A DNA stretch of 23,853 nucleotides from a virus. The notes below the pieces were generated by a model, which ran no database searches, was not told where the DNA came from, and worked only from the letters and a program-made list of their open reading frames with translations. The DNA lies in the IMG/VR virus record IMGVR_UViG_3300021091_000422, positions 1 through 23,853 of that record, one strand, 5' to 3'. Both the position numbers and the translations under genes were made by a program. This document shows, one piece after another, positions 10,000 through 23,026 of this stretch (position 1 is the stretch's first letter; each line of letters starts with the position of its first letter).

Positions 10000-10764
10000 T
10001 TATCGGTACCAAAGAAGACTGCCACTCTTAAATGCGGGCCAGCCGTAGTTCCACGGATAGATTTGCAATCCACCAGAAAGAACCATTGGTTGGTTGTTGC
10101 TGGGATGCGTGATGTTCTGGCGTGATAAGGTAACACCTTGGTCAAAGTGGTTCATATATACGGCAGCCATCTCTGGGTCTTCCTGGAACTGGTAGCACCG
10201 AGAAGCAGCAAAGTTAATAATCATAATATGAAACTCATCGTTGATGTCAACGTCAAGACCAGAGTCGGTAAGCCAAGCATAACTGGGTTGACGGAAACCA
10301 CGAATATTCAAAGCGTAGACGCCATCTGGCTTAGGATAAATCTGCAATCCGCCAGCCCACATTGAGAAGTAAACGGGATAACCGGGCACATCGGCGGTGC
10401 CATTCCAGTATTGCTGGGCCAGGAAGTCATCAATATAAATAAGTTGATTACCACCGTTGCTTTCGTTCGTGACACTAATAATCTCACGAATGTCGGCAAA
10501 GTCAGAACCTACGTTTATTCCTGTTGCCGTAGTGTGGACTTGGGTAAAACCGGTGGCATAACGGCGCTGAGAAGCAACAGTGTTAAGTTCGTAAGTAGTT
10601 TGGTACCACGGCCATTTGGTGTTTAGGCTAACAATGCGCTGAAAGGCTTCTTCAATAAAGGTATTAACAAGGTCTTCGCTGATGTCGTCAGACACACCGT
10701 TGCCGATTTGAAGGTCGGTAATGTCTTCGACTAGGTCGCGGAGTTCGTCAATATTAAGACCCAT
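10000..10764 (-). CDS. Head-tail adaptor protein (254 aa)
   Basis: It begins with helices (MGLNIDELRDLVEDITDL, then an acidic helix ending in FIEEAFQRIVSLNTKWPWYQ), followed by a beta-rich middle and a C-terminal helix with SRCYQFQEDPEMAAVYMNHF. This plan, including the WPW motif and the GLQIYPKPDG element, resembles the SU10-type adaptor family of short-tailed phages. Such adaptors form a ring below the portal and receive the nozzle. The start ATG at 10764 has GAGGTAACAG upstream and overlaps the preceding gene by 11 bp. Place between capsid and nozzle genes supports the call. Confidence 0.78.
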   Translation of the reverse strand: MGLNIDELRDLVEDITDLQIGNGVSDDISEDLVNTFIEEAFQRIVSLNTKWPWYQTTYELNTVASQRRYATGFTQVHTTATGINVGSDFADIREIISVTNESNGGNQLIYIDDFLAQQYWNGTADVPGYPVYFSMWAGGLQIYPKPDGVYALNIRGFRQPSYAWLTDSGLDVDINDEFHIMIINFAASRCYQFQEDPEMAAVYMNHFDQGVTLSRQNITHPSNNQPMVLSGGLQIYPWNYGWPAFKSGSLLWYR

Positions 10765-11176
10765 CTGTTACCTCATTTTTTGGACCGTGTTCAGCCCAAT
10801 GCGCTTCTTTCTCGGCTTCTTTAGCAGCAAGGCGCTCCTTCTCCATCTCCTGGAACTGTGCCTTGTAGATAAGCAATCTCTGGGCTTCTTCGCCCTTAAC
10901 CAAACCTTCGCCGTGCTTAAGGAAGTGCTGCAAGTGTCCGAAACACAACGGTGTCCCTTTTGACTTGGGCGCTCTACATTTGTAATTATCCCAACAGCAT
11001 CTAGTCGCTGCTGCTTTATAGGGCACGCCACTAGGGGGCGCAATCATTGTTCCGGGATTAACGAACGCTGGTGCTATGGATGTGTCCTTGGACCCCGCTG
11101 CACCATACACTGATTGTGTTCCGGCGAGCACCTGGCTACTATGAACCGGCGCATAAACTGGCTGAATATCTGGCAT
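10754..11176 (-). CDS. Putative zinc-binding protein of the head-tail region (140 aa)
   Basis: The first 55 residues are Pro/Ala/Gly-rich and probably flexible. A Cys/His cluster follows: C60, C61, C67, C78, H81, H84, H88, in the pattern CCxxxxxC-x10-CxxH. The C-terminal half is a charged helix rich in Lys, Glu and Ala. The cluster is compatible with a small structural zinc site, and I recall similar 'C-x-AP-x3-G-x2-C-x-GH' sequences in phage and mobile-element proteins, but I cannot name a family. It is the first gene after the capsid terminator and the 24-nt element, with RBS GAAGGAG five bases before the start. Function unknown; a minor virion or assembly role is likely. Confidence 0.7.
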   Translation of the reverse strand: MPDIQPVYAPVHSSQVLAGTQSVYGAAGSKDTSIAPAFVNPGTMIAPPSGVPYKAAATRCCWDNYKCRAPKSKGTPLCFGHLQHFLKHGEGLVKGEEAQRLLIYKAQFQEMEKERLAAKEAEKEAHWAEHGPKNEVTDGS

Positions 11177-11187
11177 GTTTGCTCCTT

Positions 11188-11211
11188 CTATATATAGACG
11201 TTTTTCTTACA
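11188..11211 (-). promoter_or_regulatory. Conserved 24-nt intergenic element, copy 1 (candidate promoter)
   Basis: On the coding strand it reads TGTAAGAAA, 12 nt, then TAG, with CTATATATAG at its end. It matches the copies at 13118-13141 and 19261-19284 in the first nine and last three bases and in a G at position 13. It lies 3' of a strong terminator and 11 nt before the next start codon, as expected for a promoter that restarts transcription for the tail genes. Confidence 0.6.
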
Positions 11212-11220
11212 CAATCCCAT

Positions 11221-11279
11221 AAAAACAGAATCCTTGGCACCAGTCCCGCCCGAAGGATTAGCGAAACCGATGCCAAGGA
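11221..11279 (-). terminator. Intrinsic terminator after the major capsid gene
   Basis: On the minus strand TCCTTGGCA (11279-11271) pairs perfectly with TGCCAAGGA (11239-11231). The enclosed 31 nt can pair for about 11 more positions, using several G-U pairs, leaving a loop of about 9 nt. TTCTGTTTTT follows at once (11230-11221). A long stem followed by a U-rich tract is the classical form of a Rho-independent terminator and would limit readthrough from the capsid gene into the tail genes. Confidence 0.8.
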
Positions 11280-11312
11280 CAACTGTGCTTGTCGGGTATG
11301 AACCCCTACCCA

Positions 11313-12248
11313 TCAGGTTAGACCGGTGAAGGCTCCCTGACGTGCGCGGTTGCTGCAGGTGAGTGCACCGTAGGCCAAGACGATGGCGTAACGAGCATCC
11401 TTGCCGTTGACTGTACCGTTCTGGAAGTCGGTGGTCTCAAACCAGTGACCGTTCATACCAACCAACTTCAGGTACTTGCTGTTGAGGAAGTACATGTCGC
11501 CTGCTGGAGCAATCTTGTCAAACACGACAGGAGTCTGCTTGAACATCAGGTTCTGGAAGCCTGCATTGGCCTTGGCTACGTCCTGGTACCGAACCTGGGG
11601 AACCAACAGTTCCTCATACTTCTGGTACTGGGTTTGGGTTGTGACGATGATGTCGGGAACGTCGTTGCCCTTGGAGGCATCGTTGTACACAGCAGCCATA
11701 GCCTCGGTTGTGAGGGTTGTGGTTGCGGAGTCCACCTCGGGGTTCCACCAAGTCTCGGTGGAGGCATCAATGCCACCCACGGCGTTGTTGACGGTACCAA
11801 CAATGGTCTGGATGCCGAAGAAGTTGTTGCCAGCGCCAGAACCGGTGAACAACTGGGTGTTCATCAATTCCTTGAGGCTCTCTTCAGCCTGCATGATTTT
11901 GGCGTTGAGCAACTTGATGACGGCTTCCTTGCCACGGTTCTTGGCCTCTTCAATACCGCTGATAGCGATAGAGGCTGCCATCTGCTTCCAGGCGTACTCA
12001 GCAGCGCTGATGCCGTCCTGGGGAGTTAGCGAGATTGTGTCAAATCCCGCATAAACAGCGGCAGTGCCGTTGGAGGCGTACATCAAGGGCTCTACGACTG
12101 AAGTACCGCCCTCTTCTACGACTACACGACCACGGCTGTTCAGGTGGTCAAGAAGCACGTTGGCCTTGAAAATGTTGTCAACAAGCGTAGGACGATAGTT
12201 CTGCAGCGTTGTTGACAGAATTGCGTTAAAATCTGGGTTACCGGGCAT
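11313..12248 (-). CDS. Major capsid protein, HK97-fold type (311 aa)
   Basis: The gene follows the scaffold gene directly and is followed by a terminator, the usual setting of a strongly expressed coat gene. The protein has the features of HK97-fold coats: an N-terminal arm (LQNYRPTLVDNIFKANVLLDHL), a beta block with VEPLMYASN, a long acidic spine-type helix (KNRGKEAVIKLLNAKIMQAEESLKELM), and a late beta segment with PDIIVTTQTQYQKYEEL and PAGDMYFLNSKYLKLVG. The PDIIV(T)T and MYFLN patterns are typical of coat proteins of this fold in short-tailed phages. Length is normal for an unadorned coat. The start ATG at 12248 has AAGGAG about 10 nt upstream. Confidence 0.88.
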   Translation of the reverse strand: MPGNPDFNAILSTTLQNYRPTLVDNIFKANVLLDHLNSRGRVVVEEGGTSVVEPLMYASNGTAAVYAGFDTISLTPQDGISAAEYAWKQMAASIAISGIEEAKNRGKEAVIKLLNAKIMQAEESLKELMNTQLFTGSGAGNNFFGIQTIVGTVNNAVGGIDASTETWWNPEVDSATTTLTTEAMAAVYNDASKGNDVPDIIVTTQTQYQKYEELLVPQVRYQDVAKANAGFQNLMFKQTPVVFDKIAPAGDMYFLNSKYLKLVGMNGHWFETTDFQNGTVNGKDARYAIVLAYGALTCSNRARQGAFTGLT

Positions 12249-12290
12249 AATGAATCATCTCCTTAAGATGTTTTAGTTTTTGTTTTGTTA

Positions 12291-13088
12291 CTAGAGGCCT
12301 AGCGCCTTTTCGGCTTGTGTCCAGGCATCTAGCACGGATGTGGGTTTGGGTGCAGGTGCGGGTGCTCCTCCACGAGCGGAAGTTGAGCCAGAGACAACGC
12401 CTGCTGCTTTCTTTGCCTGGGTACGCTTGGTGGTTTCGGCAACCTTCTTCGTTGCGTCTGCCCGCTCGGCGTATACCTTGTCAAACTGGATTAGTTTGAA
12501 GGTGTCCTCCAGGTTCTGAGAACCAGTAGCGAGTGCTCGTGCGATAACTTCTTCTCGGTCAAAGTCTTCGCCGTACTTGCGTTCAAGGTCGGTGATTTCT
12601 TTCTCCACCTGGCTAAGGGTTTGCTGGTATTCCAGTTCCCGTTTCCACGCTTTGATTTCTTCAAGTTCCTTGACTACGGGGTCAACCCAAACGTCTTCCT
12701 CAACGGCTTGGACATTTGGTTGGCTAACACCGTAGTGTTGCTGTAGCAGGGACAAGGTGCCAAACGGGTCACGCTCCAAGGCTTCTGCCAAGGCTGCTGC
12801 CGTCTGTACTCCTTGCTTCTGCTTACTGAGTTCCTGCGTCTTGCGGGTATAATCCGCTTGGCGCTGGTATCCAGCAAGAGCCTCCTTGAGCGGAACTTCT
12901 ACTTCCTCACCATCAATCTTGATAACTACGTGCTTGTCGCCGTACTCCGTTACATCAAGAAACTCTGGGTAATTGGCTTCGTCATCCGTCCAATCGGACT
13001 CAACTGCTTCCTCATCCGTAAACTCAACTTGTCCATCCAGGGGCTGGTCTACGTCAGTATCGGTTGCATTATCTAATTCGTTATCCAT
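12291..13088 (-). CDS. Capsid scaffolding protein (265 aa)
   Basis: The N-terminus (about 1-50) is very acidic. It is followed by VVIKIDGEEVEVPLKEAL and GYQRQADYTRKTQEL, a signature I know from scaffolding proteins of many phages. A long glutamine/glutamate-rich coiled-coil region comes next, and a basic, Ala/Pro-rich C-terminus with a final helix (VLDAWTQAEKALGL) that would bind the coat protein. Position between portal and coat is the standard place. The scaffold assembles the procapsid inside the head and is then lost or cleaved; no protease domain is visible. The start ATG at 13088 has the RBS GAAGGAG in the loop of a small hairpin. Confidence 0.87.
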   Translation of the reverse strand: MDNELDNATDTDVDQPLDGQVEFTDEEAVESDWTDDEANYPEFLDVTEYGDKHVVIKIDGEEVEVPLKEALAGYQRQADYTRKTQELSKQKQGVQTAAALAEALERDPFGTLSLLQQHYGVSQPNVQAVEEDVWVDPVVKELEEIKAWKRELEYQQTLSQVEKEITDLERKYGEDFDREEVIARALATGSQNLEDTFKLIQFDKVYAERADATKKVAETTKRTQAKKAAGVVSGSTSARGGAPAPAPKPTSVLDAWTQAEKALGL

Positions 13089-13089
13089 T

Positions 13090-13122
13090 GGTAGGGTCCT
13101 CTCCTTCGCAGGTTGTCCTACC
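13090..13122 (-). promoter_or_regulatory. Leader hairpin enclosing the scaffold gene's RBS
   Basis: Coding-strand GGTAGG (13122-13117) and CCTACC (13095-13090) are perfectly complementary and enclose 21 nt that contain the Shine-Dalgarno GAAGGAG. The 3' arm ends one base before the start codon. Folding could reduce or tune initiation of the scaffold gene relative to the capsid gene. The stem is only 6 bp, so the effect may be weak. Confidence 0.4.
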
Positions 13123-13141
13123 TATATGCACTTTTCTTACA
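13118..13141 (-). promoter_or_regulatory. Conserved 24-nt intergenic element, copy 2 (candidate promoter)
   Basis: Coding strand TGTAAGAAA, 12 nt, TAG, with GCATATAGGTAG at its end. It starts one base after the portal stop codon and precedes the scaffold and capsid genes. The other copies are at 11188-11211 and 19261-19284. Transcription from here would give the scaffold-capsid pair a unit of its own, ended by the terminator after the capsid gene. Confidence 0.6.
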
Positions 13142-13142
13142 T

Positions 13143-15176
13143 TTACGCCATAGGCAAGATGCCGGACTCCATCAGAATCTCCATAACCTCTGGCGTAAAG
13201 CCACCACGATTAACTATTTCCTGAAGGATTTCGGGAGGCAATGACATCAAAACTTCGGGTGGCAACTGCTCGCTACCAGGGATTTGTGCCAACTCGGGAG
13301 GCAACTGCATTGGCGCTGGAGGTTGCGCACCAGCAATCTGTGCTGTCATCTCAGGAGGAAGTGGTCCACCGGCAAGTATTTCCTGTAGTAGTTCAGGTGG
13401 CAAACCAGCCAATTCAGGTGGTAGTCCTGGTGCTCCCATTGCCATTTGGTCTGGCATTGGTGCAACCGGCGGTTCTCCGGCAGGCAACTCAGGAGGTGGT
13501 GGCATTCCGCCAGCCGGTGCTGGTGGCTGTGAGGGATTCACGGGAGGCTCTGTTGGCTCTGGCTTATTGAGGAATCTGTCAACATCCTGCACACCAAAGC
13601 CCTGCTCAAGTATCAGTTTTGCCAAGGACTCAAGGTTAACCACCCCGGCCTGAGCAAACGGTGCCATAGCGTCAACAATCTGCAAAGCACGCTGGCGACG
13701 GAAACCCTCGTTCTGAGGAACCGTTGAACCAGCCTCAACGCTAAAGTCAAACTCGCCGTCAATATACTCTGAGTCAAAGTTAACCCACGCCCAAGCGCCA
13801 CGCTTGTCGGTAACACGGACAGTCTGCTCTTCGGTCATAAACTGCTGAGCAAGTTTGATGAGGCGATAGGCAACTTTGGCAATGCTGTGTTCAATGATGG
13901 TTAGTTTTTCTGCGGCACGAGAATCTGCTGCACCCTGAAGAATACTGGCCTCGGTAGCAGTACGACGAATATCAGGCAGAACACCACGCTGGTATTCCGA
14001 GATACCCGACACTCGGTCAATGTCGTTGATTATTAGTGTTGATTGATTATAGAAGTCTGGTGGGTTAATCAAGGCGGGCATAGGTGCAACCACATTACCC
14101 AGGTTTTCGTCACCCTTAACTGGCACCATAGCGTTGTCCTCGTCGGATGACAAGGCGCTGCGACCAAAGTCGTCAAAGGCATTTTCCTTGAACAGGTACT
14201 TACGGCTGTAACGCTTACGGTGGTTCATCATCTGAGTACGGGTTTCATTAAGTTCGTACTGCAGGGGTTCAATCGCCTCTAGTTCACCCATTGGATAAAA
14301 GTATCCAGGAATGTCGTAGTTGCGCAACATCGTAAACGGATGTCCGAAAGCAAAGGGAATCTCGGTTGGCTTAACCAGGAACTTGTCTCCACCTTCGGCA
14401 GCAAAGACACACATGGTCTTCTTGTCTAGGTCGTAATACTCAATAATGTCAGCATATGATTCGGTTGCGTAGCCAGGGTCAAACGGCTTGTACTGACGAC
14501 CATCATTGAACTGAGATACCGTAGAGCCGGTAACATCTTGGCGTGCGCTATAGTCATAACGCTTGTCATTTTTGACGTCCTTGATGGGCCGACGAACACG
14601 CTGGGCAATCCAACGAATGTCCTTCATTGTGTTTCCCTCAGGGTCAACGAACATATTAAACGGGTCAATGCGCTCAATAAAGGGCCGGTCTTCGGTAACG
14701 ATTATGTCGGTTTCGGAGAAGTTTACAGGCTTATCTTTTGATGCCCTCTCATCGTCGGTTTCCTCAACAACGACATCTTCCTCAACATAGCGATAACCGG
14801 ACTTTACCCAGCCGTGACCAATAATCAAAAAGTCTCGGACAGCCAATTGGAATTCCTCTTGGCATTCGTAGTGCTGCCACCAGTAGTTAACAATGGCTTC
14901 AGCAATAATTGACTTGTCGGCGTCTTCTGGGCCACGGGGATTAACGACAATCTTGGGGCGACCAATTGACACCGATGGGTACAATGTATTGATGGTGGCA
15001 AATGCAATGTTGACCAGCATCCGGTCGTAGGGTGCAGTTGAGCGGTATTGCTTGCCACGATATAGGTTAATCATCCGATTCCAGCAAGGGGCATAATCGT
15101 CCCTTACCCAGATTCTTGATGAGTCGTATCTTTGACGATACTCAGCGAGCAAGTCAGCATTTGATTTACGTGCCAT
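13143..15176 (-). CDS. Portal protein (677 aa)
   Basis: Residues about 1-530 have the plan of podovirus-type portals: an N-terminal helix with RDDYAPCWNRMINLYRGKQY, the NIAFATINTLYPSV segment, WWQHYECQEEFQLAVRDFLIIGHGWVKSGY, a PFIERIDPFNMFVDPEG clip-region element, and the long helix following YELNETRTQMMNHRKRYSRK. The dodecameric portal ring occupies one capsid vertex and is the DNA channel. From about residue 535 the C-terminus is very Pro-rich, with repeated LPPEL-type units. The gene directly precedes scaffold and capsid genes, begins right after the previous stop (TAAATGG), and its length is at the high end because of the Pro-rich tail. Confidence 0.88.
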   Translation of the reverse strand: MARKSNADLLAEYRQRYDSSRIWVRDDYAPCWNRMINLYRGKQYRSTAPYDRMLVNIAFATINTLYPSVSIGRPKIVVNPRGPEDADKSIIAEAIVNYWWQHYECQEEFQLAVRDFLIIGHGWVKSGYRYVEEDVVVEETDDERASKDKPVNFSETDIIVTEDRPFIERIDPFNMFVDPEGNTMKDIRWIAQRVRRPIKDVKNDKRYDYSARQDVTGSTVSQFNDGRQYKPFDPGYATESYADIIEYYDLDKKTMCVFAAEGGDKFLVKPTEIPFAFGHPFTMLRNYDIPGYFYPMGELEAIEPLQYELNETRTQMMNHRKRYSRKYLFKENAFDDFGRSALSSDEDNAMVPVKGDENLGNVVAPMPALINPPDFYNQSTLIINDIDRVSGISEYQRGVLPDIRRTATEASILQGAADSRAAEKLTIIEHSIAKVAYRLIKLAQQFMTEEQTVRVTDKRGAWAWVNFDSEYIDGEFDFSVEAGSTVPQNEGFRRQRALQIVDAMAPFAQAGVVNLESLAKLILEQGFGVQDVDRFLNKPEPTEPPVNPSQPPAPAGGMPPPPELPAGEPPVAPMPDQMAMGAPGLPPELAGLPPELLQEILAGGPLPPEMTAQIAGAQPPAPMQLPPELAQIPGSEQLPPEVLMSLPPEILQEIVNRGGFTPEVMEILMESGILPMA
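13220..13435 (-). repeat. LPPEL-type repeats in the portal C-terminus
   Basis: Between about residues 580 and 652 of the portal, units of the form LPPEL, LPPELLQEIL, LPPEM, LPPEV and LPPEILQEIV occur six times or more. Related aactcgggaggcaac-like stretches recur in the DNA. The units alternate a Pro-Pro turn with a short helix and would form an extended appendage on the portal ring, inside the head or near the terminase face. Confidence 0.75.
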
Positions 15177-15569
15177 TTACTTTTTTCCTTCTTCCATTGT
15201 GACCAGTCCCTCCCCGATTGCTGCCAGTCGGCAGTAACCGTTAGGTTCAATCTTCTGTGCAATGATGTGACAGTTCCCCATCTCGGGGCAATAGAACGCA
15301 CAATTGGAACACTTGACACCCTTTTTGGCATCTGTGTTCTTGGCGGCTGAAACATAACCAACGTAAATACCGTTGCCGTCATCATCAGCAAGTTTGCCGT
15401 ACTTAGAGGCAATCCCCATCATGGCATTAACATAATCTCGTTCGGCTGGTGCAAGTTTAACTACGGGGTTATCAACCATTGTTGATTCTTCACCTTCGGC
15501 CTCACCAAGATTGATGCTGATGGTAAATGCCTTGCCCATGGGGCTATCTGAATAAGTCTTGTCGTTCAT
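15177..15569 (-). CDS. Cys-rich small protein upstream of portal (130 aa)
   Basis: An acidic protein whose C-terminal half has five cysteines: C87, C90, C94, C100 and C113, in the context CSNCAFYCPEMGNC and PNGYCRL. This C-x2-C-x3-C-x5-C-x12-C pattern could hold a zinc ion or an iron-sulfur cluster. It recalls the HiPIP-like 'CxxCxFY ... PxGxC' proteins seen in aquatic phages, but typical HiPIPs have four cysteines with different spacing, so I do not assert this. RBS GGAG precedes the ATG at 15569, and the gene abuts the portal gene. No signal peptide or membrane segment. Function unknown. Confidence 0.75.
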   Translation of the reverse strand: MNDKTYSDSPMGKAFTISINLGEAEGEESTMVDNPVVKLAPAERDYVNAMMGIASKYGKLADDDGNGIYVGYVSAAKNTDAKKGVKCSNCAFYCPEMGNCHIIAQKIEPNGYCRLAAIGEGLVTMEEGKK

Positions 15570-15571
15570 TT

Positions 15572-17026
15572 TTATTCTCCTATAATTTCAGGCAGTGTTT
15601 CGCCAGCGCGCCTGCGTGTAATGAAATCATCAAGCACCTGCTCAAGTGCAATTCTAAAAGGGATTCCCGCATCGTTCAATCTTTCTGCCTCACGAACAAG
15701 TGCCCTGTATCTACCTTCGTTCATCCCATAACCACCCTCATTTGTGTCTACTACAAAGCGGTCACGGATTATGTCTGGTGGGTTCATACTCTGCCCAGCG
15801 ATTCTGCTAGCGGCTATCCTATTAGCGATTTTACGCAATTCTGGGTCATTCATCACTTCGTCAATTGTTATATTCGGGTCGTACTTAGCATAAGTACTTG
15901 TTGGACTACCCTGGTCACGAATAATATTATCTCGGATGTAGTTGTAAGCAAAGATGGCATTGTTGTTACCGATGGACTCTGGCACTCCAGCCTTGGCTGA
16001 GTTTGCGAATATCTTTCGCATTGCCGCATCTTCAGTCATTTGCATAACGCGGCGACGAGCAAGCAGGTCCTTGAGCGCCTCTTCGGTTAGTGGTATTCGT
16101 TCAATAACTTTCTGTGGTCCTTGAACGGCGAGTGAACTGCTGGTTGGTATGTTGATGTCCGTACCAGTGCGTGCCCGTGGTGACCGGGTAAAATAGGCAG
16201 CGGGCGGATTGTCGTAAAGCATGTCCAGAAATCCTGTATTGGTCATCTGTCGATTACCCATAATGTCTTGAACAATGGTGGGCGCTGTTGCGTCCCACAT
16301 GTAGGTTGTACCGGGGATTGAGTCACCACCAACCGTTGTTGCTTGTCCAGGCTGACGGGGAATAATTTCGCTGATATCTCCTGCTTCACCAGGAACGTTT
16401 ACGTGGATGCCATATTCGTAAGGATTAAACCGTGCACCAGGATTAGTGATGTTGGTTCGTACTGCTGGTACTGCTGCCTTGGCCGCTGCTCCTGCGGCAA
16501 ACAAGTTAAGAAGGTCTTCGGCACCCATTGTCAAACCCTCACCACGACGGTAAGCGTTGACATAGTTAATGCCAGGTTCACCAGTATCAACCACTGGGAG
16601 TAGGTCAGCAATATTTGAGCCTGTATTGACAACGCTCTTTACTGCACCGAGAGGGATGTCTTGGGGTCTAGTTTGTAGAACCTCTGCCAGTTGGTATGAT
16701 TGTTCTGTTCCCGGAACAAACGATAGAAAGCCGTCTTTGACTGTCCCACCAAGATTCTTCAGGTTGTCCACAAACCCTTTCTTCTTGGGTTCTGGTAGTG
16801 GACCAGTAGCCCGGGTTATGCGAGGAATATCTTCTTCTCTAGTGGGTGCCAAAACGGTATCTGGTTGTATGAACCCCTCGGCAATTAAGGCCTCCCTAAA
16901 AAATGCCTGTTGACGGCGTTGTCTTTCTTCTACGGCACGACGACGCTCAATCTCTTCGTAACGGCGTTTTTCTTCCTCACGACGACGACGCTCAATCTCT
17001 CTTTCCATTGCGTCTGCTGAAGCCAT
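15572..17026 (-). CDS. Unknown virion-region protein with charged N-terminal helix (484 aa)
   Basis: The protein begins MASADAMEREIERRRREEEK and continues to about residue 40 as a run of alternating Arg and Glu, a likely single long helix. An Ala-rich segment (LLNLFAAGAAAKAAVPAV, about 172-190) could be amphipathic or contact a membrane. The rest is soluble and mixed helix and beta, with no motif I recognise. It lies in the block between the tiny basic genes and the portal, where head-associated or packaged proteins are often coded. The SADAME segment also occurs twice in the 359-aa protein encoded at 5118-6197. The start is fixed by a TAATG overlap with the previous gene. Confidence 0.7.
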   Translation of the reverse strand: MASADAMEREIERRRREEEKRRYEEIERRRAVEERQRRQQAFFREALIAEGFIQPDTVLAPTREEDIPRITRATGPLPEPKKKGFVDNLKNLGGTVKDGFLSFVPGTEQSYQLAEVLQTRPQDIPLGAVKSVVNTGSNIADLLPVVDTGEPGINYVNAYRRGEGLTMGAEDLLNLFAAGAAAKAAVPAVRTNITNPGARFNPYEYGIHVNVPGEAGDISEIIPRQPGQATTVGGDSIPGTTYMWDATAPTIVQDIMGNRQMTNTGFLDMLYDNPPAAYFTRSPRARTGTDINIPTSSSLAVQGPQKVIERIPLTEEALKDLLARRRVMQMTEDAAMRKIFANSAKAGVPESIGNNNAIFAYNYIRDNIIRDQGSPTSTYAKYDPNITIDEVMNDPELRKIANRIAASRIAGQSMNPPDIIRDRFVVDTNEGGYGMNEGRYRALVREAERLNDAGIPFRIALEQVLDDFITRRRAGETLPEIIGE

Positions 17027-17340
17027 TACTTTTTATCCTTTTTCTTTTTGTTGCGTTCCGAGATAGCCTTTGCTTTTCTGCGGGCGTCAGCCTTGGAACT
17101 TGCGCCCCATGCGTACAGGGACAGGAGCAGGCGTGTGGGCTTGCCATCCTTGTCACGCTCAGGACCAGGCATATTGCCCATACGGGCTAGGAATGAAGCA
17201 CGGCGTGGGTTATCTCCAGATTTAACTGGAGCCCTAAGGTCAGAACCAGGATTAGCCTTTTCGTAGGACTTGCGTCCCTTCTCGTTTAAGCCACCTTTTT
17301 TATTCTGACCCTCTTTGCGAGTCCACGCTTCAGATGCCAT
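17026..17340 (-). CDS. DUF6321-like small basic protein (104 aa)
   Basis: The sequence AWTRKEGQNKKGGLNEKGRK, then SYEKANPGSDLRAPV, then RRASFLARMGNMPGP, fits a conserved family that I recall as DUF6321, found in aquatic phages, giant viruses and some bacteria. Its function is not known. The C-terminus ends in a Lys-rich tail (RNKKKKDKK). Stop and start signals overlap with both neighbours through TAATG (17340 and 17026), so it is part of the coupled cassette of small basic genes. A DNA-associated or virion-packaged role is possible because of the high Lys/Arg content but is not shown. Confidence 0.8.
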   Translation of the reverse strand: MASEAWTRKEGQNKKGGLNEKGRKSYEKANPGSDLRAPVKSGDNPRRASFLARMGNMPGPERDKDGKPTRLLLSLYAWGASSKADARRKAKAISERNKKKKDKK

Positions 17341-17576
17341 TATCTATGCCTCTTTGTCTTTTCAGCAATCTTTTTAGGTTGGGCTACATATTGTTTGCCC
17401 TTCTTGTTGCCTTCTGCTTTTGCCCGATTAGTGGCAGCCTTTTCTGCTGGTGACAATGAATCCCAAGCCTTGTCTGGTAGGTAGCGCTTCTTGCCTTTGG
17501 ACGGCTTTCCATCCGAAGTGCGCCACTTCTGGTCAGTCCACTTCTCCAAAGACTTTTGAGATTCTTTCTTAGCCAT
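17340..17576 (-). CDS. DUF5872-like small basic protein (78 aa)
   Basis: The protein has SLEKWTDQKWRTSDGKPSKG, RYLPDKAWDSLSPAEKAATN and GKQYVAQPKKIAEKTKRHR, a set that I recall as the first half of a widespread viral and bacterial family (DUF5872). The neighbouring 63-aa gene carries what looks like the other half. Both ends are coupled: TGATG with the preceding gene at 17576 and TAATG with the next at 17340. Basic and without membrane segments or catalytic motifs. Function unknown. Confidence 0.8.
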   Translation of the reverse strand: MAKKESQKSLEKWTDQKWRTSDGKPSKGKKRYLPDKAWDSLSPAEKAATNRAKAEGNKKGKQYVAQPKKIAEKTKRHR

Positions 17577-17767
17577 CAGTCTTTGTAACCCCCACCACGC
17601 TTCTTATACTCAGACGCAAGAAGTTGTGCTTTACGAGCAGACCACTCACCTGGGTCGCCACCCTTTGAGCCAGCCTTAATCTTCTCAAACAGTTGTTTGC
17701 GCATACCGGGCTTGGTGTAATTACCAGCCTCATTGACCCTTGATGGTGCCTTCTTTTTAGATGCCAT
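17576..17767 (-). CDS. Small basic protein with WSARKAQLLASEYKKRGGGYK motif, DUF5872-like (63 aa)
   Basis: Residues 17-63 hold YTKPGMRKQLFEKIKAGSKG, then GDPGEWSARKAQLLA, then EYKKRGGGYKD, a pattern I recall as common in aquatic phages and giant viruses and often linked to the DUF5872 domain. The gene starts two bases after the stop of the 39-aa gene (TAATCATGG) and ends in a TGATG overlap with the 78-aa gene. A basic protein with no catalytic motif visible. Function unknown, though strong conservation across distant viruses suggests a definite role. Confidence 0.8.
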   Translation of the reverse strand: MASKKKAPSRVNEAGNYTKPGMRKQLFEKIKAGSKGGDPGEWSARKAQLLASEYKKRGGGYKD

Positions 17768-17769
17768 GA

Positions 17770-17889
17770 TTACTTTTTCTTCTTTCCCTTGGGTACGCAG
17801 TTAGGTACCTTCTTGCCGCCCTTGTTCTTCATTCCGACCTTCTCGTAGCCGTCCCAACAAGTCTTAGGGGCTTTCTTCTTGGCTGCCAT
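17770..17889 (-). CDS. Tiny Lys-rich protein with CWDGYEKVG...PNC motif (39 aa)
   Basis: A short frame that starts with ATG in a TAATG overlap with the previous gene. It encodes MAAKKKAPKTCWDGYEKVGM, then KNKGGKKVPNCVPKGKKKK. The two cysteines, C11 and C31, bracket a Gly/Lys-rich turn and could bind a metal or form a disulfide. I recall similar 'CWDGY...VPNCVP' peptides in aquatic phage genomes, which makes coding likely despite the length. Purine-rich AAGAAGAAG upstream may serve as the initiation signal. Function unknown. Confidence 0.8.
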   Translation of the reverse strand: MAAKKKAPKTCWDGYEKVGMKNKGGKKVPNCVPKGKKKK

Positions 17890-18008
17890 TACTTCTTCTT
17901 CTTTGGCTTTTTACGAAGCGCCTTAAGGTCGGCTTCTGTAATCTTGTCTCGGGGTTCAGCAACCCTGGCAAGTTTCTTTTGTTTATTTGAATACTTGGAA
18001 TACGGCAT
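17889..18008 (-). CDS. Tiny Lys-rich protein with PRDKITEADLKALR motif (39 aa)
   Basis: The frame from ATG at 18008 encodes MPYSKYSNKQKKLARVAEPR, then DKITEADLKALRKKPKKKK. The core 'R-V-A-x-P-R-D-K-I-T-x-A-D-x-K-A-L-R' is one I recall from many aquatic phages. The start is preceded by AAGGAAGGA, and another ATG seven bases upstream gives only a ten-codon peptide, so 18008 is preferred. The stop overlaps the next start (TAATG). Helical and very basic; function unknown. Confidence 0.8.
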   Translation of the reverse strand: MPYSKYSNKQKKLARVAEPRDKITEADLKALRKKPKKKK

Positions 18009-18011
18009 TGC

Positions 18012-18095
18012 TCATCCTTCCTTGTAGGGCTTTGGCTTTGGCTTTACCGGCTTTGGCGTTGGCTTTGGTCTTGGCGCTGGCTTTGGCTTGTACAT
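18012..18095 (-). CDS. Lys-Pro repeat micropeptide (27 aa)
   Basis: From ATG at 18095, which overlaps the stop of the previous gene (TAATG), the frame encodes MYKPKPAPRPKPTPKPVKPK followed by PKPYKEG and a TGA stop. It alternates basic residue and proline almost throughout, as in the (Lys-Pro) spacer of TonB proteins or other rod-like polyproline segments. There is no signal peptide. The exact coupling and the tidy KP pattern make it a real gene candidate, although the length is below usual cutoffs. Its function is unknown; an extended linker or a nucleic-acid or cell-wall binding peptide would be possible. Confidence 0.6.
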   Translation of the reverse strand: MYKPKPAPRPKPTPKPVKPKPKPYKEG

Positions 18096-18265
18096 TATTT
18101 CACCGCTTTCATTGCTGCATCTAGGCACACTTCAAGACTCTTTCTGTTTTGTTTGGCACGTGTGGCTGCTTTCTTCGCAGTTGACGCATTCAACTTAGAT
18201 GGCGAGCAGGCTTTTGCTACCTTGGCAACTCTGTCTCGGGTTTCCTTAACTTTATCTTTTGCCAC
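18095..18265 (-). CDS. Small Lys/Ala-rich protein with GTG start (56 aa)
   Basis: The frame starts with GTG at 18265, with AAGGAG 8 nt upstream, and encodes MAKDKVKETRDRVAKVAKAC, then a Ser/Lys/Ala-rich helix ending CLDAAMKAVK. It overlaps the end of the 193-aa gene by 14 bp. The start region is a near copy of the start region of the 193-aa gene (25 bp with one difference, at the start codon). The composition (Lys, Ala, few hydrophobics) is that of a small histone-like or DNA-binding helix, but no family is recognised. Confidence 0.7.
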   Translation of the reverse strand: MAKDKVKETRDRVAKVAKACSPSKLNASTAKKAATRAKQNRKSLEVCLDAAMKAVK

Positions 18266-18833
18266 TACTTAGTCTCCTTATTTCCTTGGTAATCACGGGA
18301 CGAGAGGGTCCGGGCCCTATGATAAATTGGTCCTCAACACCAGAGCCAAGTCCGTAGTTGCCAGTTAGACCTGCGGCTTTGTAATGCTTTTTAACACTGG
18401 CATAACCCTCTTTTGCCATTGCGGCTTCTTTTGCGGTGGCAGCACGTGGTGAATTTCTTTTAGTAATTTTATTCTGAGCCAGTAGGTTATTGACCACCTC
18501 TTCACGACGTTTCCGGTAGTGGTCGTCTCTCTTCCTGTCGTCTTCACGAACCATGTCGGGCGGAACGTAGGTGCCATCGGCAGCAATCTTGCCACCGTTG
18601 GGCAAACGACCGGGATTCCACAATGTCTTTTGTCCAGGTTTTAGTTTGCTTAGTTCAGCATCCATGAGTTCTTTGAATGCTTCGCCGTCAAACCCCTTAT
18701 CGGTAAGGTCTTTTCTTAATGCACCACGCGCACGTGTGTCTGCTGAACCGCTGTCTGTTTCATATTTCTTTACAGCGTTAATGTAGGCTTCGCCCATACG
18801 GGTATTACGAATACTTTGTTTGTCTTTTGCCAT
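18252..18833 (-). CDS. Hypothetical basic protein (193 aa)
   Basis: It starts MAKDKQSIRNTRMGEAYINA, where ATG overlaps the stop of the preceding gene (TAATG) with AAGGAG 10 nt upstream. It is hydrophilic and rich in Lys, Arg, Gly and Asp. A helical middle (residues about 100-120, REDDRKRDDHYRKRREEVVN) is highly charged, and the C-terminus holds a Gly/Pro-rich segment with FIIGPGPSRPVITKEIRRLS. No signal peptide, membrane segment or known motif. Its place between the membrane protein and the tiny basic genes suggests a phage-specific structural or packaged protein. Confidence 0.7.
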   Translation of the reverse strand: MAKDKQSIRNTRMGEAYINAVKKYETDSGSADTRARGALRKDLTDKGFDGEAFKELMDAELSKLKPGQKTLWNPGRLPNGGKIAADGTYVPPDMVREDDRKRDDHYRKRREEVVNNLLAQNKITKRNSPRAATAKEAAMAKEGYASVKKHYKAAGLTGNYGLGSGVEDQFIIGPGPSRPVITKEIRRLSSGKR

Positions 18834-18847
18834 TACTTAGTCTCCTT
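18255..18847 (-). repeat. Duplicated 25-bp translation-start module
   Basis: Bases 18255-18279 and 18823-18847 share tcttttgcca-y-tacttagtctcctt on the plus strand with one difference. The segment carries the Shine-Dalgarno AAGGAG, a short spacer, the start codon and the first codons of the 56-aa and 193-aa genes, both beginning MAKDK. The only difference is the first base of the start codon (GTG versus ATG). Confidence 0.8.
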
Positions 18848-19036
18848 GTCAAGGTGCCAGTCAATATGCTTTTCTAATTTGTTGTCTACTTTATCAACGG
18901 TCTTAATTACTTCGTGTAGAAGTTCTCGTGCCTCTGAGTGCTGCTCTGAGTTCTCTTTGCGCAGGTTCTGGATGACCGCTACCAGCGGACCTAAGATAAC
19001 GGCTACCGCCAGCGTCAACCAGATGGGGTCGCTCAT
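18833..19036 (-). CDS. One-helix membrane protein, holin candidate (67 aa)
   Basis: Residues about 4-24 (PIWLTLAVAVILGPLVAVI) form one hydrophobic membrane segment. They are followed by QNLRKENSEQHSEARELLHE and a further amphipathic stretch that looks like a coiled coil, ending KHIDWHLDKETK. Small proteins with an N-terminal membrane helix and charged coiled coil occur as holins or as holin-like and envelope-interacting proteins in phages. There is no endolysin gene in this window to pair with. Both ends are coupled through TAATG. The holin call is a guess from size and shape; a membrane-anchored structural protein is equally possible. Confidence 0.6.
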   Translation of the reverse strand: MSDPIWLTLAVAVILGPLVAVIQNLRKENSEQHSEARELLHEVIKTVDKVDNKLEKHIDWHLDKETK

Positions 19037-19251
19037 TAGATAAGTTCCGCCCGCTCGGGCACCTTGGTAATCTTCCCACTCTTAAATGCGTTAGAATCCT
19101 CGTAGTAGCGCTGTTGTTCACGGATGGTTTGACCAGACTTAAATGTATTAGGCACGCCTAACGTAACCAACTTGATATGGCAAGCAAAGCAAAGACCCCT
19201 TTTTAGGTCGTTTTCGGAGTCAATCGGTTTTGAGCAGGTACAGTAAGCCAT
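19036..19251 (-). CDS. Small putative zinc-ribbon protein (71 aa)
   Basis: The N-terminus has C4, C6, C21 and C24 followed by H25, in CTC-x14-CFACH, a spacing that could bind zinc. The C-terminal half has two related segments, NTFKSGQT and NAFKSGKI, preceded or followed by Tyr/Arg-rich sequence. AGGAG lies upstream of the ATG at 19251, close to the third copy of the conserved 24-nt element. It is the first gene of its transcription block. Function unknown; binding DNA or a small protein partner is plausible. Confidence 0.75.
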   Translation of the reverse strand: MAYCTCSKPIDSENDLKRGLCFACHIKLVTLGVPNTFKSGQTIREQQRYYEDSNAFKSGKITKVPERAELI

Positions 19252-19260
19252 ATAAATCTC

Positions 19261-19284
19261 CTATTACATAGCGCATTTCTTACA
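19261..19284 (-). promoter_or_regulatory. Conserved 24-nt intergenic element, copy 3 (candidate promoter)
   Basis: Coding strand TGTAAGAAA, 12 nt, TAG, ending TATGTAATAG. It begins inside the last codons of the terminase gene (its TAA is the terminase stop codon) and ends just before the RBS of the 71-aa gene. It shares the fixed positions of the copies at 11188-11211 and 13118-13141. It would start transcription of the block that runs to the portal gene. Confidence 0.6.
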
Positions 19285-20872
19285 TAGACACGTTATGAGA
19301 ACCGATAACGAACTTTTCCGGTTCCTTCTTGGACACTTTGCTGGCAAACCAGTCAATACTAAACGGCGTTTTCTCAACCTTTGGCCGGTATTCTGCGTGC
19401 CAAACGAACTTAAGCATCTGGTTAGCAATGGCTAAGGACATCACGCAGTCGTCGTGTGGTGAGCCGTGAGTTGACCCGTTGTCGTCACGGACGAATGTTT
19501 TTAGTTCGGCAATGGTATTTTCGCACCTAATCTCTAGCACCCCATCACGGATATTGGCGTTCAATTCGTCCACTGCCAGGGGCTTTGACAGGCTGGTGGT
19601 TCTCCAACCGAGCGTGTCTGATGCCTCGGCATTACGCTGGTTCAGACGGCGCTGGCGGTAGATGTTGGGGTAATTACCTTTATACAGGCTGGTCAGCGTG
19701 GTAAGACCGTGGTTGTTGGACTCCACACCAATAAGCGCTGCGTTATAGAAATGCCCGAGACCGTATAATATTTCACCAAATTTATCTGGGTCAATGTGCC
19801 CGTGCCAGTGGGCTACAACCAATCCACTCTTGGCATCAACGACGTGGGCCGAGGAGAAGTCACCACGAGCCAGCCCTTCGGCTACGTCAGCCCCAATGGT
19901 GTACGTAGAACCAAATGCGGGCAACTGCCATACCTTGAGCGCTCCACCGTCCTGTTCATAGATGTAGGAGTTAACTCCCGAGTGCAACTGCTTCAGGTAT
20001 CCCCGTTGAGGTTTGTCAATGACCTGGCGATGTAAAGCGTCAATATCAAATACGGGGCGCCCAGAACGAATAAACGCCTCGTCTGGGTTGCTGGGATATT
20101 CCTGGTGCAACTGCCAGTCGGGTAGTTCTTTGGCTTGGGCTTCGTACCAACTTATATCGCGGTCTTCGTTCGCTGACCACGGGAAGAAGATTCCGGTAAA
20201 TCTATTGGTGCCAGACTGGCTGCCCATCCAGAGGTTATAGAATATGTTGCCTTCGCCCTTTGCCGTTGACAGACAGATAACACGACCACCTACGTCAGCA
20301 ATTGGTTCAATGGCTGCCCACGCTTCTTCGGGGTTAGGCAAGAACGCCATCTCGTCAATGATTACCAAGTACACCGACTCACCACGAGCAGGGTCGTTTG
20401 CCGATGGTAATGATTCAATGATGCTGTCGTTGTCAAACACCATCTTGAGTACGTTGTTCTGAATAAGTTCAGGGCCACGCTTCTTGAGCCAGTCTGGTAA
20501 AAACTTATACAGATATTTGGTTTTTGACAGAAGTTTGCTGGCTTCACGCTCGGTCTTTGACAACATAACCACAAATCGGTCGGACCAGAAGAAGGCAGTC
20601 CAAAAGGCAAACGCTGCAGCCAGGGTAGAGAAACCAATCTGACGGGACTTAAGAACGATGGTGTAGCGCTTGTCAATCCACGCCCGTACTGCCTCTATCT
20701 GTGCACCGCGTAGATTTAACGGAATCTTGCCTCGTGACGGGTGTTTGATAAACACATAGTTTGAGCAAAAGAAAGTAAATGCTTCAACCAAGTCGTCGGT
20801 CGTTGGGTTTTCGCCCGGACCACGACACTTGCGGAACTTATGTTCATCAATGAGTTCTTGTAGTGCAACCAT
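19280..20872 (-). CDS. terL: Terminase large subunit (530 aa)
   Basis: The protein has the two domains of the DNA-packaging motor. The ATPase domain shows a Walker A-type KSRQIGFST at 75-83, the Walker B segment YLVIIDEMAF (168-177, with D173 and E174), and a coupling motif LSTA near 201-204. The C-terminal nuclease domain shows IGADVAEG with D329, GVESNNHG with E384, and HDDCVMSL with the acidic pair at 474-475, matching the three acidic residues of RNase H-like terminase nucleases. Length is normal. No small subunit gene is recognisable in the window. It is coupled to the upstream oxygenase gene through TAATG, an unusual partner. Confidence 0.9.
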   Translation of the reverse strand: MVALQELIDEHKFRKCRGPGENPTTDDLVEAFTFFCSNYVFIKHPSRGKIPLNLRGAQIEAVRAWIDKRYTIVLKSRQIGFSTLAAAFAFWTAFFWSDRFVVMLSKTEREASKLLSKTKYLYKFLPDWLKKRGPELIQNNVLKMVFDNDSIIESLPSANDPARGESVYLVIIDEMAFLPNPEEAWAAIEPIADVGGRVICLSTAKGEGNIFYNLWMGSQSGTNRFTGIFFPWSANEDRDISWYEAQAKELPDWQLHQEYPSNPDEAFIRSGRPVFDIDALHRQVIDKPQRGYLKQLHSGVNSYIYEQDGGALKVWQLPAFGSTYTIGADVAEGLARGDFSSAHVVDAKSGLVVAHWHGHIDPDKFGEILYGLGHFYNAALIGVESNNHGLTTLTSLYKGNYPNIYRQRRLNQRNAEASDTLGWRTTSLSKPLAVDELNANIRDGVLEIRCENTIAELKTFVRDDNGSTHGSPHDDCVMSLAIANQMLKFVWHAEYRPKVEKTPFSIDWFASKVSKKEPEKFVIGSHNVSM

Positions 20873-21594
20873 TATACTGCAGCAATTACTTCATCAAAGT
20901 CCAGTGGTTCGGGCATTGGTCCCATAATGAGGGGAGGGGGCTCATGGGCGTGGTCTTCGTGATGGTGGTGTTCTGGCTCAGGTGTACCTTCGGTGTTGCA
21001 GATGAATGTACTAATTATCCACTTATCAGAAGTAATGGCTACGCATGACTCATGGGGATGAGTGAAGGTTGCTGGGAATAAACAGATTCGCCCCGCCTTA
21101 GGCGCAACTTTAACTTCGTGCAATGGGAAGTTTGTTTCGCCACCATATTCAACATCATTGAGGTAGATAATCGCAGCCAATACTCGGTTAGAAATTGGTG
21201 AGTTTGGAATAGGGAATGAATCAACATGAACACGATAAAAACCTTGATTCTTAGTATAACGCTGAACCTGAAAACCAGAGTCCTCAATGCGTACCCAAGT
21301 ATCAAGGTGAGTATAGTTCTGCCGGTAGATTGCGATTGCGGCAGTTAAGGCATCACATATCTTTTGTTCTAGTTCTTCATCTTCTTTTGTCCATACCAAA
21401 CCACTGTTAGTACTATAATATAAATCATTACTCAGTTTAGTTGATGGCATAAATCCGCCAAGGGTTCTTCCTTGAAATGATTCTGACCAATGAACCGTAA
21501 TTCTGTTGAGGAATTCAGCGGGCACACTGCCCATTAATCCGTCAACAACTAAAATCTGCCCCACTTTACCGGCGGGATAACCTGCTGTAATCAT
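20872..21594 (-). CDS. 2OG-Fe(II) oxygenase, prolyl-4-hydroxylase-like (240 aa)
   Basis: The iron-binding set is visible: H123 and D125 in YRVHVDSF, and distal H181 in HESCVAITSDKW, with K191 ten residues later where 2-oxoglutarate would be bound. The signature YLNDVEYGGETNFP (about 144-157) is that of prolyl-4-hydroxylase-like enzymes. The enzyme would use iron, oxygen and 2-oxoglutarate to hydroxylate a protein or other substrate. The C-terminus has a His-rich stretch (EHHHHEDHAHE, about 208-218) and a Pro-rich segment, features beyond the catalytic core. Such oxygenases occur in aquatic phages with unknown targets. It has RBS AAGGAG and is directly coupled to terL, but its target need not be the terminase. 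Confidence 0.85.
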   Translation of the reverse strand: MITAGYPAGKVGQILVVDGLMGSVPAEFLNRITVHWSESFQGRTLGGFMPSTKLSNDLYYSTNSGLVWTKEDEELEQKICDALTAAIAIYRQNYTHLDTWVRIEDSGFQVQRYTKNQGFYRVHVDSFPIPNSPISNRVLAAIIYLNDVEYGGETNFPLHEVKVAPKAGRICLFPATFTHPHESCVAITSDKWIISTFICNTEGTPEPEHHHHEDHAHEPPPLIMGPMPEPLDFDEVIAAV

Positions 21595-21642: not shown

Positions 21643-22362
21643 TCACGAATCTGCAGTAACATCTTCATAATCATAGCCTCCAAATGCACGGCATTTCGTT
21701 ATCTGACTCACAAGCCACTCGTTGATTTCCATAGAAAGTTCAGGAATTGGCTCTGTAGTTCGTGCGTTAGCATCGGAATCTCCACGCAAAAATCTACCCA
21801 GTTTTTCATATGGGATTTGGTTGATTACCCATTGACGAAGATTGTCTGGAAAACCCATTACATCAAGCATTCCGTGACTAACAATTGCCACTTCTTCGGT
21901 GGAACCGAGTTCCCGATATGCCCAATCCCACTCAACTAGATAACGCAACATTTCTTGGAGAGTTCTCGTATGGTATGGGCGACGAATCATGTGTTCTTCT
22001 TTTTCATCTTCGTCTAATTCTAAATAAACAATAAATCCGTATGGCAATGCTTCAATGACTGGGTAATACATAGTTAAATCTTCGGCCAATACAACATGGT
22101 CGCCGGTAAATGGGTCTGGTAGTTCATCGCTTCCACAAACGCATTTACCATCAACTTCGTAATGAAAACTCAATGGACCAGTGGCAGCGGAATCACAACG
22201 AACATGCGGGTAGACTTCAGCAAGGTCTGGTGAAATGCCAGCCCTTGTTAAAGCAAAAACACCGATGTTGTCGGTAGCACCGACTATCTTGTGGTAATAG
22301 CCTGGTGCTCCGGGTTGGTCATAGTGGTCAGAGAACAGCACGGTCGTATGTTCCGATACCAT
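21643..22362 (-). CDS. Unknown Cys/His-motif protein, paralog 2 of a tandem pair (239 aa)
   Basis: Shares a plan with the upstream 232-aa protein: PGAPGYYHKIVG, GVFALTRAG, RCD, GPLSFHYEV, CVCGSDE, FTGDHVV, YYPVIEALPYGFIVYLELD, RTLQEMLRYLVEWDWAY, and a C-terminal NEWLVSQITKCRAFGGYDYE. Conserved C56, H67, C74, C76 and H89 could form a zinc site. The frame overlaps the upstream gene by 35 bp, starting at 22362; no strong RBS is visible, and translation may depend on coupling. A later GTG at V8 would shorten the N-terminus. I do not recognise the family. Both are soluble, acidic proteins. Function unknown. Confidence 0.75.
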   Translation of the reverse strand: MVSEHTTVLFSDHYDQPGAPGYYHKIVGATDNIGVFALTRAGISPDLAEVYPHVRCDSAATGPLSFHYEVDGKCVCGSDELPDPFTGDHVVLAEDLTMYYPVIEALPYGFIVYLELDEDEKEEHMIRRPYHTRTLQEMLRYLVEWDWAYRELGSTEEVAIVSHGMLDVMGFPDNLRQWVINQIPYEKLGRFLRGDSDANARTTEPIPELSMEINEWLVSQITKCRAFGGYDYEDVTADS

Positions 22363-23026
22363 TGCAGGAAATAATTTGGTTATATAACCATTCGCTAAAA
22401 AAATCTGGGATGTCGGGAATTAGTAATGGATTGCGAATCCGTGCTTGTGGGTCGCCTTCTAGATAACGATTTACCTTTTCTGGTGGCATATCGTTGGTAA
22501 GCCAATTTTCAACTTGTTCAGGCACATCAAGTGCATTCCACATATTGTAGCACGTTTCTGCTAAAGATTCTGCTACACCGCCTACGAATGCTGATTTCCA
22601 TTCCAGCATTAGGCGAAACAATTCTTGTAATGTTCTAGATGATTCCGAGTGGTGTGCCATAACCGACAAATCTTCATCGGAGGCATTGTCTAACTCATAA
22701 TATAAAATTACACCATAATTAGGAACTTCTATTACGGGGTATAAGGCAGCGATGTTGCCGAAACGAATAATATGGTGACCAGTTAATGAACTGGGTTCTT
22801 CGGACGAACCACAGGAACATAACGCATTTTCAATATCGTATGTGTGATGGAACAAAGGTCCGACTTTTCTCCGACCATCACATCTGCGCATGCCGTTTTC
22901 CCTACCCATTTGAGCAGGCACAGCCATTCGTGCTATTGAAAAAACACCATGTGTGTCATTAAGTCCAATTTTTCGGTAGAAGTATCCTGGTGCGCCGGGT
23001 CGTTGTATTGCATCTTGAATTCTCAT
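22328..23026 (-). CDS. Unknown Cys/His-motif protein, paralog 1 of a tandem pair (232 aa)
   Basis: Begins MRIQDAIQRPGAPGYFYRKI and matches paralog 2 over nearly its full length. Shared blocks are GVFSIARM, RCDG, GPLFHHTY, CSCGSSEEP, LTGHHII, ALYPVIEVPNYGVILYYELD, SRTLQELFRLMLEWKSAFVG and SEWLYNQIISCNGIGTYD. C49, C70, C72 and a His (H84 or H85) keep the pattern of a possible metal site. It starts right after the tail-collar gene stop (TAAATGAG). I recognise no known family. Its position next to a fibre protein could mean a fibre chaperone or a fibre-modifying role, but this is only inference. Confidence 0.75.
   Translation of the reverse strand: MRIQDAIQRPGAPGYFYRKIGLNDTHGVFSIARMAVPAQMGRENGMRRCDGRRKVGPLFHHTYDIENALCSCGSSEEPSSLTGHHIIRFGNIAALYPVIEVPNYGVILYYELDNASDEDLSVMAHHSESSRTLQELFRLMLEWKSAFVGGVAESLAETCYNMWNALDVPEQVENWLTNDMPPEKVNRYLEGDPQARIRNPLLIPDIPDFFSEWLYNQIISCNGIGTYDRAVL

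Follow-up and report, generated by a model that had tools for sequence, protein, structure and literature searches.

Class III promoters of phage T7 carry TATA followed by a G, and a hairpin in the phi10 leader begins at that G. Here we analyze a 24-nucleotide (nt) element that occurs three times in the virus record IMGVR_UViG_3300021091_000422 from IMG/VR, a phage fragment whose entire 23,853 bases make up our window, and which a preliminary description had read as a phage-specific late promoter. Among the described systems closest to it, the sigma factor gp47 of Salmonella phage 7-11, a 185-amino-acid (aa) extracytoplasmic function (ECF) sigma, reads GTAAtg-(16)-aCTA upstream of late genes (PMC8948821); late promoters of phage phiEco32 consist of a single element, tAATGTAtA, and its sigma gp36 is without region 4 (PMC8948821); and the RinA/Ltr regulators of Gram-positive phages act where an array of repeats precedes a single sigma A late promoter (PMC13123087).

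As in 7-11, whose sites we compared through the published account only (PMC8948821; a short regular expression missed the published sites in the part of the 7-11 genome scanned), the element analyzed here is bipartite, has a GTAA-type first box and occurs at several sites before late genes. Its GTAA is near-invariant and followed by Y/R where 7-11 has GTAAtg; only GTAA is strictly common to the two, because the window copies read GTAAGA. With phiEco32 it shares the presence of ATGTA in late promoters, which in phiEco32 depend on the phage sigma, but it has two boxes rather than one. From its distribution across relatives we infer promoter function: the element is very likely a promoter of some type, and the explanation that best fits the comparative evidence, which we regard as probable, is that all three serve as late promoters in a podovirus-like phage family not yet described, in support of the preliminary description.

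Three copies in the window

The copies are located as follows:
19261..19284, minus strand: element A, TGTAAGAAATGCGCTATGTAATAG, overlapping the terL stop codon, 5' of a 71-aa gene
13118..13141, minus strand: element B, TGTAAGAAAAGTGCATATAGGTAG, between portal and scaffold genes, starting 1 base past the portal stop, 5' of scaffold and capsid
11188..11211, minus strand: element C, TGTAAGAAAAACGTCTATATATAG, in the gap past the capsid gene, shortly beyond a hairpin, 5' of the head-tail genes

The pattern TGTAAGAAA-N12-TAG matches the window at exactly these three places, all on the minus strand (shuffled sequences average 0.01 matches and never reach three), which bears out both the coding-strand copies first described at 19284-19261, 13141-13118 and 11211-11188 and their placement before new gene blocks, with the 71-aa gene, scaffold/capsid and head-tail genes downstream. 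Fixing the G at position 13 leaves the same three copies, and allowing three mismatches yields seven matches, compared with 6.8 by chance. A two-block family model (described below) scores highly in the window only at the same three copies. None of them carries the sigma-70 hexamers TTGACA and TATAAT at a distance of 16-18, and a scan for such promoters stayed at chance level (9 vs. 8.3), in agreement with the earlier remark that no two-hexamer sigma promoter could be recognized. In a scan for early promoters of the E. coli sigma-70 type, matches were fewer than in shuffled sequence, and the scan was uninformative.

A bipartite consensus across relatives

To place the element in its family we used 80 loci obtained by a capsid search of viral contigs; a capsid protein search of genome contigs returned no relative. 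The exact window sequence is retained only in the nearest relatives and is altered in L014 and L016 (TGTAAGAAATCCGCTATATAG), while an 18-base version of the pattern, scanned across the collection, matched only in L014 and the contig of L016. Only L004-L007, L009, L014 and L016 share with the window copies the AAGAAA stretch and the position-13 G. The 24-nt pattern and its fixed G are thus real in the window copies, as first described, but the pattern is a local variant of a family consensus and the G is shared only among the closest relatives.

At homologous sites in dozens of relatives, located after terL, before scaffold and after the capsid gene, the consensus is AtGTAAYRA-N8/9-nTATRTAGR, with GTAA and TAG nearly invariant and their spacing nearly fixed. 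As modeled, the first block reads A-T/G-GTAA-Y-R-A, mostly 8 or 9 variable bases follow, and the second block reads n-T-A-T-R-TAG-R; across the wider family, GTAAY is conserved as a core and is followed by TAG at about 20-21 bases from the G in GTAA. Because the two-block model was seeded by eye, how well it fits the 80 distinct gaps used to build it does not count as independent evidence; the contig scans do. Most gaps at the A and B sites fit the model, and about 20 C gaps, where gene order past the capsid differs, do not; in at least some of the latter genomes the site lies directly after the capsid gene instead.

Scanning 13 contigs revealed 50 model matches (2.2 in Markov sequence), nearly all of them immediately ahead of a gene on the late strand; some of these contigs are near-duplicates, so the 50 matches are not all independent. 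Some matches fall at positions unused in model fitting, such as before a terminase-small-like gene. A second set of 16 more distant contigs, found via the sigma-like gene described below rather than the capsid, gave 30 matches vs. 3.3 expected. Across 26 long contigs, in which gaps account for 47 kb of 915 kb (5% of the DNA), there are 71 matches: 52 lie between genes on the late strand, 7 lie in coding sequence on that strand, and the opposite strand has 3 and 9, respectively. The matches in relatives are therefore mostly intergenic, on the late strand and before late gene blocks, and are not equally frequent in coding or shuffled sequence, leaving the promoter reading unrefuted by this comparison.

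Within the distant set, GTAACGA...TAGAGCAAC stands upstream of scaffold in nearly every genome, and some matches, of the form GTAACGA-N9-ACATATATG, overlap a ribosome site and start codon and may be coincidental matches. Among annotated phages, only MW202803 is clearly related in portal and terL, and it contains no model match. The reading of GTAA as a mere stop codon was ruled out because element C, like other sites, lies away from any stop codon.

Genes and structures around the copies

Terminase, portal, scaffold and capsid genes of the window were recognized via PHROGs, and the features next to the three copies are:
19036..19251, minus strand: 71-aa gene, first past element A
13090..13122, minus strand: leader past element B, in which GGTAGG (13122-13117) and CCTACC (13095-13090), flanking the ribosome site, are able to pair
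12291..13088, minus strand: scaffold gene (phrog_3927), first past element B
11313..12248, minus strand: major capsid gene (phrog_9953)
11219..11280, minus strand: long stem-loop with a T-rich tail between the capsid gene and element C (-47 kcal/mol, z -5.2)
10754..11176, minus strand: 140-aa gene, first past element C

The post-capsid stem-loop is followed by TTCTGTTTTT and is probably a terminator, consistent with the original observation that one copy follows a strong terminator; its loop kept it from being detected in a simple terminator scan. If the copies are late promoters, the packaging, scaffold/capsid and head-tail blocks would have separate starts, each from its own element, with element C restarting transcription beyond the hairpin. 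The location of sites directly at leaders, ribosome sites and hairpins would also suit an RNA element, that is, a processing site or translation signal within a long late transcript that has no promoter role. We consider this quite unlikely, since the nearly fixed spacing, with two boxes about two helical turns apart, suits DNA recognition, a probable terminator precedes element C, and the box resembles the proven late promoters of phage 7-11.

Elsewhere in the window, a 2OG-Fe(II) oxygenase-like gene (20872-21594, minus strand) adjoins terL, and the adjacent genes at 21643-22362 and 22328-23026 (minus strand) look like diverged copies with a common PGAPGY stretch.

Leader hairpins and a possible start site

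In long leaders, there is an excess of hairpin arms whose first base is the G of TAG. The mean hairpin score over 27 non-redundant leaders is 5.55, compared with 1.52 +/- 0.60 for leaders whose first three bases were kept and the rest shuffled; 0 of 500 shuffles reached 5.55. Pairing is retained across differing sequences (GGGAAT/ATTCCC, GGAAAC/GTTTCC, GGTAGG/CCTACC), and the L014 leader shows paired changes (GATAGGA/TCCTATC). In the distant set, 16-17 bases separate GTAACG from the start codon past terL and no ribosome site is present, a pattern that translational coupling could also explain. Together, these hairpins and this start codon hint at a start at the G after TATRTA, a T7-like rather than a sigma geometry, which suggests the G of TAG as the transcription start.

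Scaffold leaders of relatives and of the window (13122-13090) also have in common a stretch GGAAYAACC...GAAGGA...GGACTCC before the start codon, which is apparently able to pair around the ribosome site, making translation control possible.

The likeness to T7 extends to the position of sites before scaffold/capsid and past the capsid terminator. A late promoter for a phage-type RNA polymerase unrecognizable by sequence, starting at the G after TATRTA as T7 promoters do, would account for leader hairpins beginning exactly at that G, as in the phi10 leader, and for the distant-set start codon. We nevertheless judge it unlikely, as T7-type RNA polymerase (PF00940) has no match in 44 records (a T7 control was positive), and as the 8-9 bases between the boxes vary even inside one phage, unlike the contiguous conserved stretch of about 20 bases in T7-type promoters. 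The 44 records include contigs apparently spanning the whole early region, such as G029, which was judged circular from a repeat. No family was matched by gp1442, the only large protein whose fold is unknown, and its predicted model (predicted local distance difference test, pLDDT, of 51) is too poor to tell whether it is a polymerase.

Among the proteins read by eye in G029 (L157, L158) and other long relatives (32-40 kb), no DNA polymerase, helicase or RNA polymerase was recognized, a RusA-like resolvase being the only replication/repair gene recognized. Distant-set versions of the large virion protein (66-4394 in the window) reach 2,200-3,100 aa, as against 1.4-1.6 thousand codons in close relatives, and the protein and its homologues have almost no database matches.

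A sigma-region-4-like protein as candidate reader

Long relatives that cover the region encode a protein of about 113-139 aa that adjoins the large virion-protein gene on the opposite strand and is recognized as sigma-70 region 4 only. Sigma70_r4 scores above the Pfam cut-off in several members, every one of the 33 aligned members has a TIGR02937 match, and most also match sigma families; in the first member these matches are confined to the families' last domain. Its predicted structure has a pLDDT of 75 overall and about 90 in the helix-turn-helix, and a structure search lists sigma factors first, including sigmaE region 4 on -35 DNA (2h27), although no E-value is better than 0.0065. The assignment to sigma region 4 is shared by profiles from Pfam, NCBIfam, PHROGs and PDB and by the fold.

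In three phages the sigma-like gene is split by a frameshift at the same codon (AGR CTG C GGA GT), namely L192 602-992 (G020), L152 from 4854 (G017) and G023 near 26412-26883, although two of these phages share only 48% identity in the first part, making this a candidate programmed +1 frameshift.

On balance it seems likely that host polymerase and this sigma-like protein read the element. Host RNA polymerase would be redirected by the small phage protein, which would recognize the GTAAY box much as the 7-11 sigma is thought to do with GTAAtg; the host enzyme is assigned this work because the phages encode no recognizable RNA polymerase. As in 7-11, there is a phage protein with a sigma region 4, and no phage polymerase would be needed.

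The same proteins bear on another explanation, in which the element is the binding site of a RinA/Ltr-type late activator aiding ordinary host promoters. RinA/Ltr regulators are likewise small phage proteins acting on late genes, and 14/33 of the region-4-like proteins weakly match the RinA model TIGR01636. We find this explanation highly improbable, as sigma-70-type promoters are not in excess here, and as Ltr control involves arrayed repeat sites that lie upstream of a single sigma A promoter (PMC13123087), whereas a single bipartite site stands directly before each of several blocks here.

Several points weigh against late promoters read by host polymerase and the sigma-like protein. The spacing from GTAAYR to TAG is 14-15, shorter than the 16 of 7-11, and the second box is TAGR rather than aCTA. 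Hairpins from the G of TAG hint at a start there, not 6-9 bases past the second box as in 7-11-type promoters. Region 2 was looked for in the sigma-like protein and not found, in contrast to the 7-11 sigma, which has regions 2 and 4, and it may not be an ortholog of gp47; region 4 is all that is recognized here, whereas phiEco32 gp36 is without it. Lastly, the gene of the window's own species would lie beyond the window, the protein being known from relatives only. It is conceivable, if rather doubtful, that these phages combine a T7-like start geometry (starting at the G that immediately follows TATRTA, with the recognition box some 20 bases before it) with the lack of a T7-type polymerase, the reader being either host polymerase with a region-4-only sigma-like factor arranged in a non-standard way or an unrecognized polymerase.

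Implications

The authors of the 7-11 study predicted undescribed sigma-promoter pairs in further phages (PMC8948821), and the family element together with the sigma-like protein is a candidate for such a pair. As judged from sequence, the element would represent a class of late promoter, known in kind and new in its variant, in a phage family not yet described. This uncultured family thereby gains a concrete putative late-gene switch and a candidate reader protein. If true, a sigma-like protein with region 4 only would be an unusual way for a phage to redirect host transcription, and the same would hold for a T7-like start site in phages that lack a T7 polymerase.
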